A stretch of 5,151 nt of DNA from Planctomycetota bacterium (GTDB lineage Bacteria; Planctomycetota; UBA1135): positions 14,219-19,369 of the forward strand of contig NVRO01000002.1 of NCBI GenBank assembly GCA_002400895.1, written 5' to 3'. Numbering within the stretch: the first letter of the stretch is position 1; the number at the start of each line of letters is the position of its first letter. Positions 1-5,151 of the stretch are shown in pieces. The notes below the pieces were generated by a model. It was not told the DNA's origin, did not search any database, and saw nothing but the letters and a program-made list of their open reading frames with translations. The translations under genes were made by a program, and so were the position numbers.

Positions 1-261
1 ATGGTCTGCCACCAGTTTTACGGAATGGGCGGATATCTTGGTCCGGACCTGACCAACGTGGTTAGCCGTCTCGGCGAAGAAACCGTTGCTTGGGTGTTAC
101 GCAATGGGCGCGGCAGCATGCCTGACATGGATTTGACGGAAGAAGAAATAAGCTCACTTGTCGTTTTCTTTAATGAGATTGGCAACACCGGGGTATTTCC
201 TCAGCAATCATGGCCTCCGGGCTGGTTCCCCGCCACTGAACATTCCCTTACCGACAAATGA
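1..261 (+). CDS. NorC-like membrane cytochrome c, C-terminal part (5' end outside window)
   Basis: Monohaem c-type cytochrome subunit that would pass electrons to the NorB-like subunit encoded next to it. The visible 86 residues begin inside the haem site: residues M-V-C-H at the window edge complete a CxxCH motif if the codon just before base 1 is Cys, so the ATG at base 1 is not the true start. After the haem site come the family-typical G-x-G-G-Y-L-G-P-D-L-T-N segment (about 9-19), a GSMPDMDL segment whose Met40 is the likely sixth haem ligand, a 'LTEEEISSLVVFFNEI' terminal helix, and a C-terminal W-P-P motif (71-73). This order is that of NorC, the small subunit of cytochrome-c-dependent NO reductase. 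The N-terminal membrane anchor expected for NorC lies outside the window. The stop overlaps the next start (ATGA, 258-261), so the two are translationally coupled. A symbol is withheld because the partner subunit is not a canonical NO reductase. Confidence 0.85.
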   Translation: MVCHQFYGMGGYLGPDLTNVVSRLGEETVAWVLRNGRGSMPDMDLTEEEISSLVVFFNEIGNTGVFPQQSWPPGWFPATEHSLTDK

Positions 262-1625
262 CATCCCACCCACGTCGCGGCCCAGAGTTCCGGTTCCTGC
301 TGGGTGCTGGTATCTCCCTTCTCATCGCAGTTATTGCCGGTGCTGGAGCTATCTATTACGTTGCTTGGGCCAAACCGGGCGATTCAATGGTTGCATTCAT
401 CACCCTGCGACCAATCCATGTAACCTTTGCCATTGCCTGGATATTCCTCGCTGCCATCGGCGGCATTTGGGCATTTCTTCCCCGCGTCATGGATGTTCGG
501 ATATACAGCCGCAAATTAGCCAACATGCAATGGTGGCTGTTCCTGATTGCCGGCACCCTTGCTCTATCGGGCTACCTTAGCGGCAACTTCAGTGGCCGTG
601 AATACCTGAACTTCACTTGGCCGGCATCCTTGTGTATTGCCGCAGGCTGGGTGTGTTTTTTACTCAACTTCTTCGGCACCCTACGCCAATCGACCAAACC
701 ATGGCCGGTCTATGTCTGGATGTGGGCAACCGGCTTGGTAATGTTCAGTTGGGCCTTTATCGAGGCTCATCTATGGATGCTCCCATGGTTCGAAGAAGCC
801 CCGGTGCGAGATTTGTCAGTCCAATGGAAATCCTATGGGTCGCTCACCGGGTCGTGGAACATGTTGGTGTACGGGCTTTCAATCTGTCTTATGGAACATG
901 TCGGCGGCTCCGGTGCTGCCCACAGCCGCAAGGCATTCTGCTTCTACTGGTTGGGGTTGACCAATCTCCTGTTTGGCTACGCTCATCACACCTACCACTT
1001 ACCGCAATCGGAGTGGATCCGTTGGATGGCCTTTGCTGTCAGCATGACCGAGTGGGTGGTGCTACTGTCCCTGATCCAGGATTGGGCACAACCATGGAGC
1101 AGGGAGGCCTGGCGCAAAACTCCCGAACACCGCATCCCCCGGGCATTTCTGGCCGCAACCTCGGCATGGATTGGTATCAATCTGATTCTTGCCCTGTTGA
1201 TTTCCATACCCACATTCAACTGGTTCACTCATGGAACCACGATTACCGTTGCCCATGCCATGGGCAGCACCATCGGCATCAACTCGATGATTCTGTTCGG
1301 AGCAGGCTTCACTTGGATGATTTCCAAAACCGGCATTCGTCCGCCAACGGAAAAGAAATTGTGGTTGGGATTTGGCATCACCAACCTCTTCCTGCTTGTC
1401 TTCTTCCTTCTGCTGGTCTTTGCTGGTGCAGTCAAGGGGCTGGGAATGGTGAAAAGTGGTTGGTCTTTTGCCCAAGTTCAGGACCACCTGGAACCGATGA
1501 TGTGGTGGGGAGGATGGGCTGCTATGGGTCTATTGGCCGGCCTGTTGATTCTGATTGGTTCTTGGTTGACGCTTGTTCTTGCAGCCGGTAAAACGGAATC
1601 AACAACTTCGGAAGAACAAGCATGA
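258..1625 (+). CDS. NorB-like haem-copper oxidase catalytic subunit with altered active-site residues
   Basis: Integral membrane catalytic subunit of the haem-copper oxidase superfamily, NorB branch: 455 residues and about 12 hydrophobic helices, both usual for NorB. Metal-site residues can be matched to the cNOR pattern: His54 in 'LRPIHVTFAIAW' (low-spin haem b), His171 in 'EAHLWM' and His243-His244 in 'GYAHHTYH' (CuB/FeB site), and His333 in 'HGTTITVAHAM' (proximal ligand of the high-spin haem). Glu179 and Glu265 match the other two conserved cNOR glutamates, and 'GREY' at 113-116 resembles the calcium-site glutamate segment. Two diagnostic residues differ: the Glu of HLWxE is Leu175, and the second His of AHGH is Met335. 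The protein may thus be a divergent NO reductase, an O2 reductase, or an oxidase-like enzyme of unknown substrate. The start at 258 overlaps the upstream NorC-like stop by ATGA, and its own stop overlaps the next start in the same way. Membership of the NorB-like branch is well supported; the reaction is not. Confidence 0.9.
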   Translation: MTSHPRRGPEFRFLLGAGISLLIAVIAGAGAIYYVAWAKPGDSMVAFITLRPIHVTFAIAWIFLAAIGGIWAFLPRVMDVRIYSRKLANMQWWLFLIAGTLALSGYLSGNFSGREYLNFTWPASLCIAAGWVCFLLNFFGTLRQSTKPWPVYVWMWATGLVMFSWAFIEAHLWMLPWFEEAPVRDLSVQWKSYGSLTGSWNMLVYGLSICLMEHVGGSGAAHSRKAFCFYWLGLTNLLFGYAHHTYHLPQSEWIRWMAFAVSMTEWVVLLSLIQDWAQPWSREAWRKTPEHRIPRAFLAATSAWIGINLILALLISIPTFNWFTHGTTITVAHAMGSTIGINSMILFGAGFTWMISKTGIRPPTEKKLWLGFGITNLFLLVFFLLLVFAGAVKGLGMVKSGWSFAQVQDHLEPMMWWGGWAAMGLLAGLLILIGSWLTLVLAAGKTESTTSEEQA

Positions 1626-2401
1626 ACACCACCCTCAAGGGCATCCTGCTGGCCTTCGCACTGTTCGTGGGAACATGGCTGGTGTTCAGGACTTCGTCAA
1701 GTCTGTACGCAGCTGCGGTTAATGCGCCCCCACAAACCGACCTGGTACTGCCGGCGGATTCAGAGCATTCGCTGGGTGCACGCCTTTATCGCCGGGACTG
1801 TGCCGCTTGCCACGGCATTGCCGGAGATGGCGAAGGCAAACTGGCGCTGACAATTCCCCCGCACCTGCCACGCAACTTCCGGGGCGAGCCCTTTCGCTTT
1901 GTCTCCACCGACAATAGCGTGGTTTCGCGAGATGACATCCTGCGTACTATCCGCCGCGGAATCCCCGAAGCCGGAATGCCCCCCGCATTATTGTGTTCAC
2001 CACAGGAGCAGGAAGCACTTGCAGATTACGTGCTCGCAATGCGCCAACTTGGTAGTGGCAGTGGTGAGTCGGCAGGCGAACTGATACCCGCTCCACCCCA
2101 AGAGCCACCAACTTCAACGAAAGCGGGGGCAGAACTTTTTGCGACCTATTGTGCCGCTTGCCACGGTCACGATGGAACTGCCAAGGATGCTCCTGCCTTT
2201 CCAAATTCCATCGGGCGATTAATCAAGCCGCGAGATCTGAGCTCCGGTGAATTCCACGGTGGCGATACCGAACTCGACCTTTATTGGCGGATTCGCTGTG
2301 GCCTTCCCGGAACGGTCATGCCCGCGTTTTCGAACGAGTTGCTAAGCGATCGACAGGTACGGGACATCATCAGCTTTATCCGCTCGCTCAATCAGTCCTG
2401 A
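1622..2401 (+). CDS. membrane-anchored dihaem cytochrome c
   Basis: Periplasmic electron carrier of 259 residues. An N-terminal hydrophobic segment (about 7-23) serves as signal anchor, with no obvious cleavage site. Two cytochrome c domains follow. Domain 1 has C60-A-A-C63-H64 with probable distal ligand Met119 in 'EAGMPP'. Domain 2 has C177-A-A-C180-H181 with probable ligand Met233 in 'TVMPAF'. They are joined by a Pro/Ser/Gly-rich linker (about 144-167). Two extra cysteines (125 and 226) lie outside the haem motifs. The start was chosen at the ATGA overlap with the NorB-like gene; a purine-rich GGAAGAA lies a few bases upstream but is weak as a ribosome site. Position and coupling suggest that it feeds electrons to the NorC/NorB-like pair or is a third subunit of the complex; the partner is inferred. 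Its last 14 coding bases overlap the end of the opposite-strand ligase gene. Confidence 0.88.
   Translation: MNTTLKGILLAFALFVGTWLVFRTSSSLYAAAVNAPPQTDLVLPADSEHSLGARLYRRDCAACHGIAGDGEGKLALTIPPHLPRNFRGEPFRFVSTDNSVVSRDDILRTIRRGIPEAGMPPALLCSPQEQEALADYVLAMRQLGSGSGESAGELIPAPPQEPPTSTKAGAELFATYCAACHGHDGTAKDAPAFPNSIGRLIKPRDLSSGEFHGGDTELDLYWRIRCGLPGTVMPAFSNELLSDRQVRDIISFIRSLNQS
1799..2166 (+). repeat. 17-base direct repeat at the two haem-binding motifs
   Basis: The 17 bases TGTGCCGCTTGCCACGG occur identically at 1799-1815 and 2150-2166, encoding the C-A-A-C-H motif of each haem domain. The flanks are diverged. It is best read as two homologous cytochrome domains (an old internal duplication) with strong constraint or local gene conversion at the haem site, not as a mobile or regulatory repeat. 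The interval given spans both copies. Confidence 0.8.
2388..2401. other. 14-base convergent overlap of two coding regions
   Basis: The stop of the plus-strand dihaem cytochrome (TGA, 2399-2401) lies beyond the stop of the minus-strand ATP-grasp gene (TGA on that strand, 2390-2388). The last codons of each gene are therefore antisense to the other. No independent terminator fits between the two genes. Confidence 0.85.
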
Positions 2402-3419
2402 CACCCGGGTTATTCGGGTTACAGTAATCGTCTCCGCGGGCAGGCTGGTCGATTGAATTTCTACCAAATGCAGTTGCCACCAACTGACGAACAAAGCCAA
2501 CGTGCCCGGCTGGATCCATCCCCAGGATAATGTCGGCACTGCCCGGATCAGAGGAAGGATAAAACACCCCGCAGTTGGGATTAATCTCCAGCATGAATGG
2601 AGTGCCGTTACGGTCTACGCGGATATCGCAACGACCGAAACTGGTACCACCCAGGGCGGCGAAAAATCGTGCGGATTCATCACGAAGCCTGCAATCGAGG
2701 ACGGGGTCGGCAACCGGGGAAAAGGAAAGACCATCGAAATCCTCCCATTTCAATTTGGCGTGCTTGAAATCCTCGCCCTCGGGAAAGCAGTACTGAATCG
2801 GGGTAAAGGTTGTCGGGTTAGCCTGGTCTTCAGGATTCTCCGCAACCAGAACCGTGCATTCGATGCCCTCGATATATTCCTCGATCAGGGCGGAACCGTG
2901 TCGAGACATTATCTTGCGCGCCTGGCGCCGCAGGCCTGCCGGAGTTTTTACTCGAGAATTACGGCTTATATCCACGCTGGCATAACTGCTGTAGTGCTTG
3001 ACAAAGAGCGGGAACCGCAAGGACTCTGCCGCGCGCTCTACATCTTCTTCATTAATCGCAATAACACCGGCTGGAGTGGAAACTCCGACCTTCCGGCATG
3101 CATCTTTCATTTGCAGTCGTGAAGGCTCGTAAAAATCAGAGGTGGCGCCGGTGAATGGTACTCCATGTTTCTCGAGCATTTCGACAACTTCGATTCCCGG
3201 TGTGTCTTCCTGATCTGCAGCACCGTCACAGAGGTTGAAAAACAAATCAAATCCTTTCCCCAGAAGCGCTTCAACTTCCAAGGGCGCGCTCTTCTTGTTT
3301 GTCAAAGTGGCGACATGCCAGTCTGCCTCGGGCAGAAAAGGGCGAGGATCACAAGGCCAATCATTCTCCGGAAATGGGTCGGCGTCAAGTTCCTGGTTGG
3401 TCAATAGACAAATGCGCAC
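2388..3419 (-). CDS. ATP-grasp ligase, D-alanine-D-alanine-ligase-like
   Basis: Cytoplasmic ATP-grasp enzyme of 343 residues, the class that activates a carboxylate as acyl phosphate and joins it to an amine. The order of elements fits the family: an N-terminal Rossmann-like strand (MRICLLTN), a 'FDLFFNLCDG' strand-loop (57-66), 'GVPFTGA' (86-92) followed by 'RLQMKDACRKVGVSTPAG' (from 101), the ATP-binding Lys141 in 'PLFVKHYSSYASVDISR', 'LIEEYIEGIE' (179-187) for the adenine and ribose contacts, and a metal site of Asp265/Asp269 plus Glu278 and Asn280 in 'MLEINPNCG'. The glycine-rich N-terminal substrate motif of true Ddl with its catalytic Glu is not seen, so the substrate may be another amino acid or peptide. 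No ddl symbol is assigned. The start is GTG at 3419-3417; an in-frame TAA sits two codons upstream, so it cannot begin earlier. It lies 12 bases after the esterase gene on the same strand, with no Shine-Dalgarno sequence. Its C-terminal codons overlap the convergent cytochrome gene. Confidence 0.82.
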   Translation of the reverse strand: MRICLLTNQELDADPFPENDWPCDPRPFLPEADWHVATLTNKKSAPLEVEALLGKGFDLFFNLCDGAADQEDTPGIEVVEMLEKHGVPFTGATSDFYEPSRLQMKDACRKVGVSTPAGVIAINEEDVERAAESLRFPLFVKHYSSYASVDISRNSRVKTPAGLRRQARKIMSRHGSALIEEYIEGIECTVLVAENPEDQANPTTFTPIQYCFPEGEDFKHAKLKWEDFDGLSFSPVADPVLDCRLRDESARFFAALGGTSFGRCDIRVDRNGTPFMLEINPNCGVFYPSSDPGSADIILGMDPAGHVGFVRQLVATAFGRNSIDQPARGDDYCNPNNPGVRTD

Positions 3420-3431
3420 GTATTAAGCAAT

Positions 3432-4823
3432 CTAAGGAAGTATGGGCACCATAAACGTAAAGGCCCCAACCCCTTTGCGGTTTCTGATCCACGGCCCGCT
3501 GGCAACATGCCCGTCATAGGCCACCTCGGAAGATGCCGTGCTGCCCGACAATTGGAGCGTTATTTTTCCGGCTGATGCAGTTGCAGATGTAACTGTTTCC
3601 AATACTCCTGCGCCGAGATTGAAATGAGCCTCGATATTTTGTCCGAGAATCAAAACTTGTCTGGAATTTCGAAAAACCAACTCAATTTCATCGCGCGCAG
3701 ATGAGGTAAACCGAGCTTCCTTGATATTGGCTGGCGCGAGCGCTGGCGGGAACGATGCTCCATACAGGATGACGGCGATTGCGGCCCCCATTAAATTTCC
3801 CATTTTGCGGTACCCCTGGTAAAAGAAATGACAGCCATCGTGCGCATTGATTGCCGTCGATGACAAAACCGTAACATTCGTGAACAAGTCCGAGCTGCGG
3901 CGCTGGAGCTCACGGATACCCATACCGTTTACACCACAGCCGTCACGGATTTGAAACATAAATACCTGCTCCAAGCTGGGGAAGTCCTGATACCAGTCGT
4001 CCCTCAGCTTGCTCCAATTGGCGTGATAAATGGTCGGGTCGGTTCCCCCATCGGATTCGCCCTGATGCCAGAGCATGGCGCGGACGTTCTGGTCAATGCC
4101 TGATTGGCGGGCACGAAAGAGTAGTCGGCCGTAAATAGTGCCCAGATTTTCGGGGTTGGTGTCATCACGCATATGCTGCATTAAATAAGTTCCACCAACC
4201 GCGCCATTTATCAAAGCTATCGGCACCTGGTAAGTATCGACCAATAGTCGTGCGGCACGCAGCGCCCAGGTTCCGACGGTCCCGGAACTGTACATTCCCT
4301 GGCCTTCAGCCAGGTGCCAATCCAAATCCGCAGCAACCTGGATTGCACCCAACGCGGAAGTTCCAAAGGAACGAATCCAGCGGGATTGTGACTGGTTGGC
4401 AAGCCCTTCACCGTGATAGTCGGCTGCTACGGCGTTTGACTGTCCATTAATAAGGATGGCGTCACCACAAACGACCCGGTCAACGAAACCAATTTGTTGA
4501 ACCTGACCACCAATTTCGAGGAGTAACTCAAAGTCGTAGTCATGTAATCCTGCATCGATGGTAGGGGCAAATGAAAACGGAGCAGAGCCACCGGAGTAAC
4601 TCAGGTTGACAGAACCGTTCCACCAGGGTGAGCCATCCCTGGTAACGACGAGATGGATGCGACTCACGTTGGGGGTGGTGACAGCTCCGGAAATAGGAAC
4701 GACTGCCTGGTTGGTGACCAAATCACGAGCATAAAGGCGCCCGGAGACCGGGGCCTCCGTCAAGTCGACCTGTGCAGGCAGGAAACCTGACATGAGAAGC
4801 AACGCGAATAGGAATCTAATCAT
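3432..4823 (-). CDS. secreted SASA/SGNH-type carbohydrate esterase (sialate O-acetylesterase-like)
   Basis: Predicted exported esterase of 463 residues that would remove acetyl or similar ester groups from a carbohydrate; the actual substrate cannot be read from the sequence. A signal peptide is clear (MIRFLFALLLMSGFLPAQ, cleavage probably after residue 16-18). A beta-rich segment follows (about 20-115), then the SASA catalytic core: G-Q-S-N at 127-130 with nucleophile Ser129, 'NGAVGGT' (206-212) for the oxyanion region, 'WHQGESDGG' (252-260), and 'DGCHFF' with Asp329 and His332 as the rest of the triad. The C-terminal part (about 365-460) looks like a second beta-sandwich. The frame is open 41 codons further upstream, but that stretch lies mostly inside the preceding gene and would place the signal peptide internally, so ATG at 4823 is preferred. 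It follows the YeiH-like gene by 22 bases and precedes the ligase by 12, so it probably belongs to the same transcript. No ribosome site is seen. Confidence 0.85.
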   Translation of the reverse strand: MIRFLFALLLMSGFLPAQVDLTEAPVSGRLYARDLVTNQAVVPISGAVTTPNVSRIHLVVTRDGSPWWNGSVNLSYSGGSAPFSFAPTIDAGLHDYDFELLLEIGGQVQQIGFVDRVVCGDAILINGQSNAVAADYHGEGLANQSQSRWIRSFGTSALGAIQVAADLDWHLAEGQGMYSSGTVGTWALRAARLLVDTYQVPIALINGAVGGTYLMQHMRDDTNPENLGTIYGRLLFRARQSGIDQNVRAMLWHQGESDGGTDPTIYHANWSKLRDDWYQDFPSLEQVFMFQIRDGCGVNGMGIRELQRRSSDLFTNVTVLSSTAINAHDGCHFFYQGYRKMGNLMGAAIAVILYGASFPPALAPANIKEARFTSSARDEIELVFRNSRQVLILGQNIEAHFNLGAGVLETVTSATASAGKITLQLSGSTASSEVAYDGHVASGPWIRNRKGVGAFTFMVPILP

Positions 4824-4845
4824 GGCAACAAATGCAGGAGAATGA

Positions 4846-5151
4846 CTATAACACGAGCGAAATAAGCCCAAGGGAAAGACCTGCGAGCACAGCCCACTGC
4901 GCAACTCCAACCAGTAATGGCACGCTACCAGTTCTGAGCAAGTCACGCAGATTGGTTTGCAGGCCTACTCCAGCCATGCCGATGCACATCAACCATTTGA
5001 CTCCGGAGTTCAAGTTGCCGATCTCAAAAGCCCCTTGTTCGGGAAGCAACCCCGATGAACCCAGGGCGGCAAAGACCACGAACATTACCAAGAACCACGG
5101 AACCAACGGGATCTTGGCGCCAGCAGTGGTCCGATTGGCATCTTTTTCGGC
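4846..5151 (-). CDS. YeiH/UPF0324-family membrane protein, C-terminal part (5' end outside window)
   Basis: The last 101 residues of an integral membrane protein that runs off the right edge of the window; the reading frame is open to base 5151. The visible sequence starts with 'AEKDANRTTAGAKIPLVPWF', then has three hydrophobic helices: about 'VPWFLVMFVVFAALGSSGLL', 'GVKWLMCIGMAGVGLQTNL' and 'VPLLVGVAQWAVLAGLSLGLISLVL'. The K-I-P-x-V-P-W-F start, the 'AGVGLQTNL..L...G..PL' segment and the closing helix match the C-terminus of the YeiH family, often called putative sulfate exporters. That function is a database label with little direct proof, and nothing here tests it. Stop codon TAG at 4848-4846. 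It is upstream of and in line with the esterase gene, probably in one transcript. Confidence 0.78.
   Translation of the reverse strand, partial: AEKDANRTTAGAKIPLVPWFLVMFVVFAALGSSGLLPEQGAFEIGNLNSGVKWLMCIGMAGVGLQTNLRDLLRTGSVPLLVGVAQWAVLAGLSLGLISLVL

Follow-up and report, generated by a model that had tools for sequence, protein, structure and literature searches.

Does a NorB-like protein with methionine in place of the second low-spin-haem histidine represent a local alteration of a familiar nitric oxide reductase (NOR), or does it belong to a distinct family with a differently built active site? The question is raised by a 5,151-nucleotide stretch of DNA (the window) from a Planctomycetota bacterium (GenBank assembly GCA_002400895.1, contig NVRO01000002.1). 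In a Pfam scan the product of its NorB-like gene matches PF00115, the COX1 family, and homology to this profile together with the predicted 12-helix fold places the protein in the haem-copper oxidase superfamily. Codon 335 of the gene is ATG and lies inside the motif HGTTITVAHAM, two residues past the haem b3 ligand His333.

Features of the window and conservation of key residues in the Met335 family (314 aligned rows unless stated; 22 references)
Feature	Position	Strand	Observation
NorC-like mono-haem cytochrome c, C-terminal part	1..261	+	PF13442, E 1.6e-06
NorB-like protein gene	258..1625	+	455 aa; 12-helix haem-copper-oxidase fold; Met335 family
His54, first low-spin-haem ligand, helix II	417..419	+	H 313/314, one gap
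Glu169, helix V end	762..764	+	family-invariant, 314/314
His171-Leu175, misread earlier as NorB His207-Glu211	768..782	+	variable in 268 rows; past helix V in model
Lys191, helix VI, one turn ahead of Gly194	828..830	+	K 313/314; W in 16/22 references
Gly194, position of first metal-B His (NorB/CcoN His207)	837..839	+	G 313/314; H 22/22 references
Asn201, position of NorB Glu215	858..860	+	N 314/314; E in 8 cNOR and 6 qNOR references
His243-His244, two remaining metal-B histidines, helix VII end	984..989	+	314/314
Glu265, counterpart of NorB Glu280, helix VIII	1050..1052	+	E 313/314, D in 1
His333, high-spin haem b3 ligand	1254..1256	+	H 313/314; 22/22 references
Met335, replaces second low-spin-haem His (NorB His349)	1260..1262	+	M 313/314; H 22/22 references
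Di-haem cytochrome c, 259 aa	1622..2401	+	PF13442 in two stretches; 4-base overlap with NorB-like gene

Relatives were collected in three protein searches that yielded 286 identifiers, the first two contributing the best 120 of 1035 and the best 120 of 559 matches and the third all 51 of 51. The resulting alignment of 314 rows comprises the window sequence (replacing its own database copy, P0001), 285 other proteins and 28 sequences from Planctomycetota loci. Near-copies are included among these rows, which form 306 clusters at 99.5% identity, 288 at 90% and 142 at 70%. Eight cNOR, six qNOR and eight CcoN-type sequences served as references.

The original prediction held that Met takes the second low-spin-haem position while the high-spin ligand His333 and the first low-spin ligand His54 are kept, and all three observations extend to the family as a whole, here called the Met335 family (see table). 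MAFFT, a profile HMM alignment with PDB sequences and hhalign concur in pairing Met335 with NorB His349 and with its CcoN counterpart. The sole exception at both 335 and 333 is P0014, which has Leu at 335 within unrelated sequence and keeps the Gly194 discussed below. This 609-aa database protein resembles the Met335 family in its first part, is unrelated in its C-terminal part, and is probably a chimeric or frameshifted open reading frame.

A methionine unique to this one sequence, named at the outset as an outcome that would speak against the idea, is thus not what we observe. The genes are under purifying selection (dN 0.083 and dS 1.60 for L001-L002); of the ten pairs compared, six had saturated dS. 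Together with the 313 relatives that share Met335, this selection excludes a unique change or a sequencing or assembly error. There is likewise practically no chance that the protein is an ordinary cNOR carrying a local substitution or assembly error: "nitric oxide reductase subunit B" is indeed the JGI name of several members (at NCBI others appear as cbb3-type cytochrome c oxidase subunit I), but that reading is refuted by the near-invariance of both Met335 and Gly194 and by a clade position apart from cNOR.

The near-invariant histidine columns among 268 rows are 54, 243, 244, 325 and 333, and column 325 holds His in 20 of the 22 references as well. No further conserved histidine among these rows is free to bind the low-spin haem in place of Met335, the other outcome that would have counted against the original prediction. 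It is quite improbable that Met335 is no ligand, leaving the low-spin haem five-coordinate or absent; the ligand role of Met335 is assigned by alignment, which gives this alternative some room, but the near-invariance of His54, Arg51, Pro52, Arg114, His325 and Met335, with no other conserved His available, argues against it. Ligation by His and Met would plausibly raise the redox potential of the low-spin haem.

The same prediction had read the segment HLWML (171-175) as the counterpart of NorB HLWVE (207-211), and so placed a lost glutamate at Leu175. This candidate is ruled out by the alignments, by the variability of the segment and by the end of helix V in the predicted model, where helix V spans residues 151-170 and helix VI residues 182-216. 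Among 268 rows, position 171 is His in 184, Tyr in 73, Asn in 10 and Gln in 1, and position 175 is Leu, Ile, Phe, Met, Val or Ala. Moreover, NorB His207 lies about 50 residues ahead of the HH pair, which here is at 243/244. The counterpart of His207 is instead Gly194 in hhalign alignments to cNOR and to CcoN and in MAFFT, or Tyr193, one residue earlier, in the PDB profile alignment; position 193 is also not His (its five commonest states are Tyr in 156, Thr in 98, Cys in 33, Asn in 16 and Ala in 5). NorB Glu211 is paired with Thr197 by hhalign and with a gap by MAFFT. The glutamate is therefore indeed absent, although not at Leu175, and these alignments indicate that a metal-B histidine is lost besides Glu211, a change that the original prediction had missed.

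No column of helix VI (182-216) contains His in more than 30% of 268 rows. When five A-family oxidases are added, MAFFT sets their Ile or Phe, rather than their metal-B His, at column 194, and the helix VI register therefore drifts at such distance. The absence of a conserved helix VI histidine within the family is independent of register. Lys191, Gly194, Asn201 and Tyr205 are each conserved in at least 312 of the 314 rows and Gly198 in 261 of 268; judged by spacing, positions 191, 194, 198, 201 and 205 would share one helix face. The only row lacking Gly194, L022, has Arg194 together with Met335. Rows with just one of the two histidine changes are absent from the alignment, His being found at neither 194 nor 335 in any of the 314 rows.

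Six conserved histidines constitute the signature of the haem-copper oxidase superfamily, according to PMC3413370. The Met335 family keeps four of these, with those at 194 and 335 missing throughout. Glu at the Glu265 column is found in 14/14 cNOR and qNOR references and 0/8 CcoN types, and Gly326 of the HGT motif in 8/8 cNOR, 5/6 qNOR and 0/8 CcoN types; Arg114 is shared with 8/8 cNOR sequences and 1/8 CcoN types. Asn236 is present in 311 of 314 rows at a column that is Tyr in 8/8 CcoN types, which we take to be the cross-linked tyrosine of helix VII that characterizes cbb3 oxidases. The Met335 family thus differs from CcoN in lacking this Tyr, in lacking His at 194 and 335, and in carrying Glu265 where CcoN has Leu or Met.

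Identity to cNOR (NorB/NorC; Pseudomonas aeruginosa 3o0r, Roseobacter 4xyd) is about 20%. Where cNOR has low-spin His349, FeB ligand His207, Glu211 and Glu215, the Met335 family has Met, Gly194 or Tyr193, a loss, and Asn201, respectively. Of the cNOR FeB ligands, presumably His207, Glu211, His258 and His259, only the HH pair is kept, and the bis-His low-spin haem of cNOR is likewise absent. NO dismutase is another NOR relative that misses one metal-B histidine, as described in PMC3413370, but that enzyme is qNOR-like and has a different His replaced by Asn and a nearby Glu replaced by Gln. The Met335 family keeps HH and Glu265 and hence does not carry the dismutase signature, in which HN replaces HH and Gln replaces Glu280.

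Altered active sites are also reported for the NOR-type families eNOR, gNOR, sNOR, nNOR and bNOR, which are related to B-family reductases and were compared here through their descriptions in PMC11388526 and PMC8756737. From those same descriptions, the second subunit of sNOR, gNOR and eNOR is a cupredoxin, whereas the partner of the Met335-family protein is a cytochrome c. Sequences of these five families were outside the set used for the trees below.

As anticipated by the original prediction of a distinct subfamily, Met335 homologues form a single clade (support 100/99 and 100/100 in two trees), and they lie outside the cNOR clade (100/96 and 100/98) in both. Its proposal that homologues with both Leu175 and Met335 be tested for monophyly holds for Met335, while position 175 is variable. 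A three-group tree was rejected as proof of a sister relation to cNOR plus qNOR, as the choice of root dictates that outcome; with an A-family outgroup the family joins cNOR plus qNOR weakly (88/53).

This weak join raises the standing of another reading, wherein the family is an oxidase-like branch whose substrate is oxygen or some compound other than NO, and correspondingly lowers that of the NOR-like reading developed below. CcoN also ranks ahead of NorB in a single-sequence search (3.5e-09 versus 7.6e-04), in Foldseek E-values and in hhalign scores (231 versus 214 for cNOR). Nevertheless, the oxidase-like reading appears improbable to us, given Asn236 at the CcoN cross-link column and the NOR-like Glu265 and Gly326. 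Overall, profile and fold scores separate NorB and CcoN by very little, the predicted fold resembles both cNOR and cbb3, and a profile search of the PDB (E up to 1e-5) gave eight sequences, all of them NorB, CcoN/cbb3 or qNOR.

Record names, which most rows lack and on which phylum assignment is based, place members in Planctomycetota, Bacteroidota, Gemmatimonadota (P0201, P0280), Myxococcota (P0179, Nannocystaceae) and, in one case, Chlorobi (P0281). Among 392 Planctomycetota genomes, 26 carry a member (E up to 1e-15, the weakest match being 3.0e-53). One scan of viral contigs gave 32 pattern stretches, none confirmed as the Met335 family. Searching plasmids with P0040, from the Bacteroidota group, gave 46 records, all below 60% identity; 30 were listed at 23-25% identity, and two that were inspected resemble NorC-NorB loci. 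We recognised no description of the family in the open-licence literature, subscription papers being mostly outside this scope, and it is apparently a widespread and undescribed bacterial relative of NOR.

The gene neighbourhood points to a cytochrome c partner. The window begins inside the CxxCH motif of the NorC-like gene, where L001, L002 and L004 show CMVCH. As is typical of the cNOR partner, a NorC-like cytochrome is found upstream in 26 of the 28 Planctomycetota loci, the group to which this count applies. The scan covered CxxCH motifs within 1.3 kb upstream: 24 loci have a NorC-like stretch (CxxCHQ followed by GPDLT), and L012 and L045 have an adjoining NorC-like BLAST match. The two remaining loci offer 135 upstream bases (L007) and 661 (L021), the latter with one CxxCH resembling the second haem of a longer cytochrome type. 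L001-L004, the close kin of the window, have a one-motif cytochrome upstream and a two-motif cytochrome downstream, L007 also has a two-motif cytochrome downstream, and in most other loci the upstream cytochrome has two motifs. In L038 the Met335-family gene is followed by one for a 631-aa protein (8293-10188) that contains eight CxxCH motifs.

Neighbouring open reading frames come from a simple script that takes the longest frame, and one neighbour group consists of three overlapping or opposite-strand frames that may not be real. An aminotransferase is a neighbour only in L001-L004. Three genes are on the minus strand of the window: one for a protein with a D-Ala-D-Ala ligase C-terminal match (2388-3419), which at its end shares 14 bases with the di-haem cytochrome gene, one for a SASA-type carbohydrate esterase (3432-4946) and part of one for a PF03601 protein (4846-5151).

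We tentatively favour, at not quite an even chance, a reading in which the Met335-family protein serves as the catalytic-type subunit in a NOR-like complex that draws its electrons from cytochrome c, has His and Met as ligands of its low-spin haem and contains a rebuilt metal site. The NorC-like cytochrome c would hand electrons to low-spin haem b, whose ligands, by position and conservation, would be His54 and Met335, and this haem would pass them on to haem b3, held by His333. The metal beside b3 would be bound by His243, His244 and probably Glu265, the last being proposed because the helix VI ligands His207 and Glu211 of NorB are gone; the site may thus have been rebuilt as 2-His-1-Glu. Such a site, together with a high-potential His/Met haem, would be suited to reducing or scavenging NO with electrons from c-type cytochromes, perhaps apart from classical denitrification. 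NO turnover would be the likeliest, though still putative, chemistry.

This NOR-like reading draws on Met335, Gly194, Lys191, Asn201, His243, His244 and Glu265, each conserved in at least 313 of 314 rows, as well as on the single clade, the NOR-like residues, the NorC-like neighbour, the cNOR/cbb3-like predicted fold and purifying selection. Counted against it are the missing helix VI FeB ligands, the weak join with cNOR plus qNOR, the near-tie scores, and the gene-content results given below. We know of a 2-His-1-Glu non-haem metal beside a haem solely from designed proteins. One such design places 2-His-1-Glu iron in myoglobin and yields NOR activity, to judge from a title cited in PMC6696605; its ligand set is the one proposed here, although the design is artificial and the likeness is inferred.

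A further reading, which we regard as rather unlikely, is that the protein is a non-catalytic sensor or electron-transfer member that keeps its haems, lacks a working second metal, and serves to bind NO or O2 or to carry electrons without reducing NO. Consistent with this, one metal-B His and Glu211 are missing across the whole family. So is the finding that, unlike in cNOR, no NorQ or NorD relatives occur among the neighbours of 24 Met335-family loci, for some of which one flank is covered by little sequence. The conservation of His243, His244 and Glu265, however, is hard to explain without a metal.

A non-catalytic role would also fit the lack of a visible link to nirK or nosZ in Planctomycetota. 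In the 392 genomes, nirK (E up to 1e-20) occurs in 0/26 Met335-family genomes and 14/366 others (p 0.61), and nosZ in 1/26 and 17/366; with counts this low, a link may still exist. Four of these genomes have strong cNOR matches (E under 1e-100), and in three of the four nirK lies on the cNOR contig, about 4 kb away at most; the method is therefore able to detect such a pairing. G003, a genome outside the 392-genome match list, carries both a Met335-family gene and a true cNOR, which implies that the Met335-family protein is not simply a stand-in for cNOR.

In G009, the single nosZ case, the NosZ-like gene is divergent and shares a contig with the Met335-family gene (L085:2581-4029), about 6 kb away. 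The region L085:7172-11995 of this genome contains the NosZ-like gene (487 bits, below the TIGR04246 cut-off of 625), an SCO1-like gene and a di-haem cytochrome.

Returning to the NOR-like reading, its broader form is possible but somewhat doubtful: a superfamily branch that, going by record names, spans four or more phyla, keeps four of six histidines and naturally combines a His/Met haem with a 2-His-1-Glu metal. If true, the family would be a large natural exception to the six-histidine rule of the superfamily and a test of the role of each ligand in NO chemistry and electron input. Automatic naming counts its members as NorB, so that they may wrongly pass for ordinary NOR, and through JGI naming surveys of N2O potential in Bacteroidota and Planctomycetota may include this putative enzyme. 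Conversely, the classifier described in PMC3084760 dropped sequences without six conserved histidines from its data sets, and histidine-sextet filters of this kind may hide the family from surveys.

Genes of the qNOR/NOD-like type were found in 9/26 Met335-family genomes and 54/366 others (p 0.02), a hand tally that is not relied on here. The NO-dismutase signature is present in 9 of 16 Planctomycetota qNOR-like sequences (L051-L066), namely L053, L057, L058 and L061-L066, which suggests that members of the phylum may often carry NOD-like genes.
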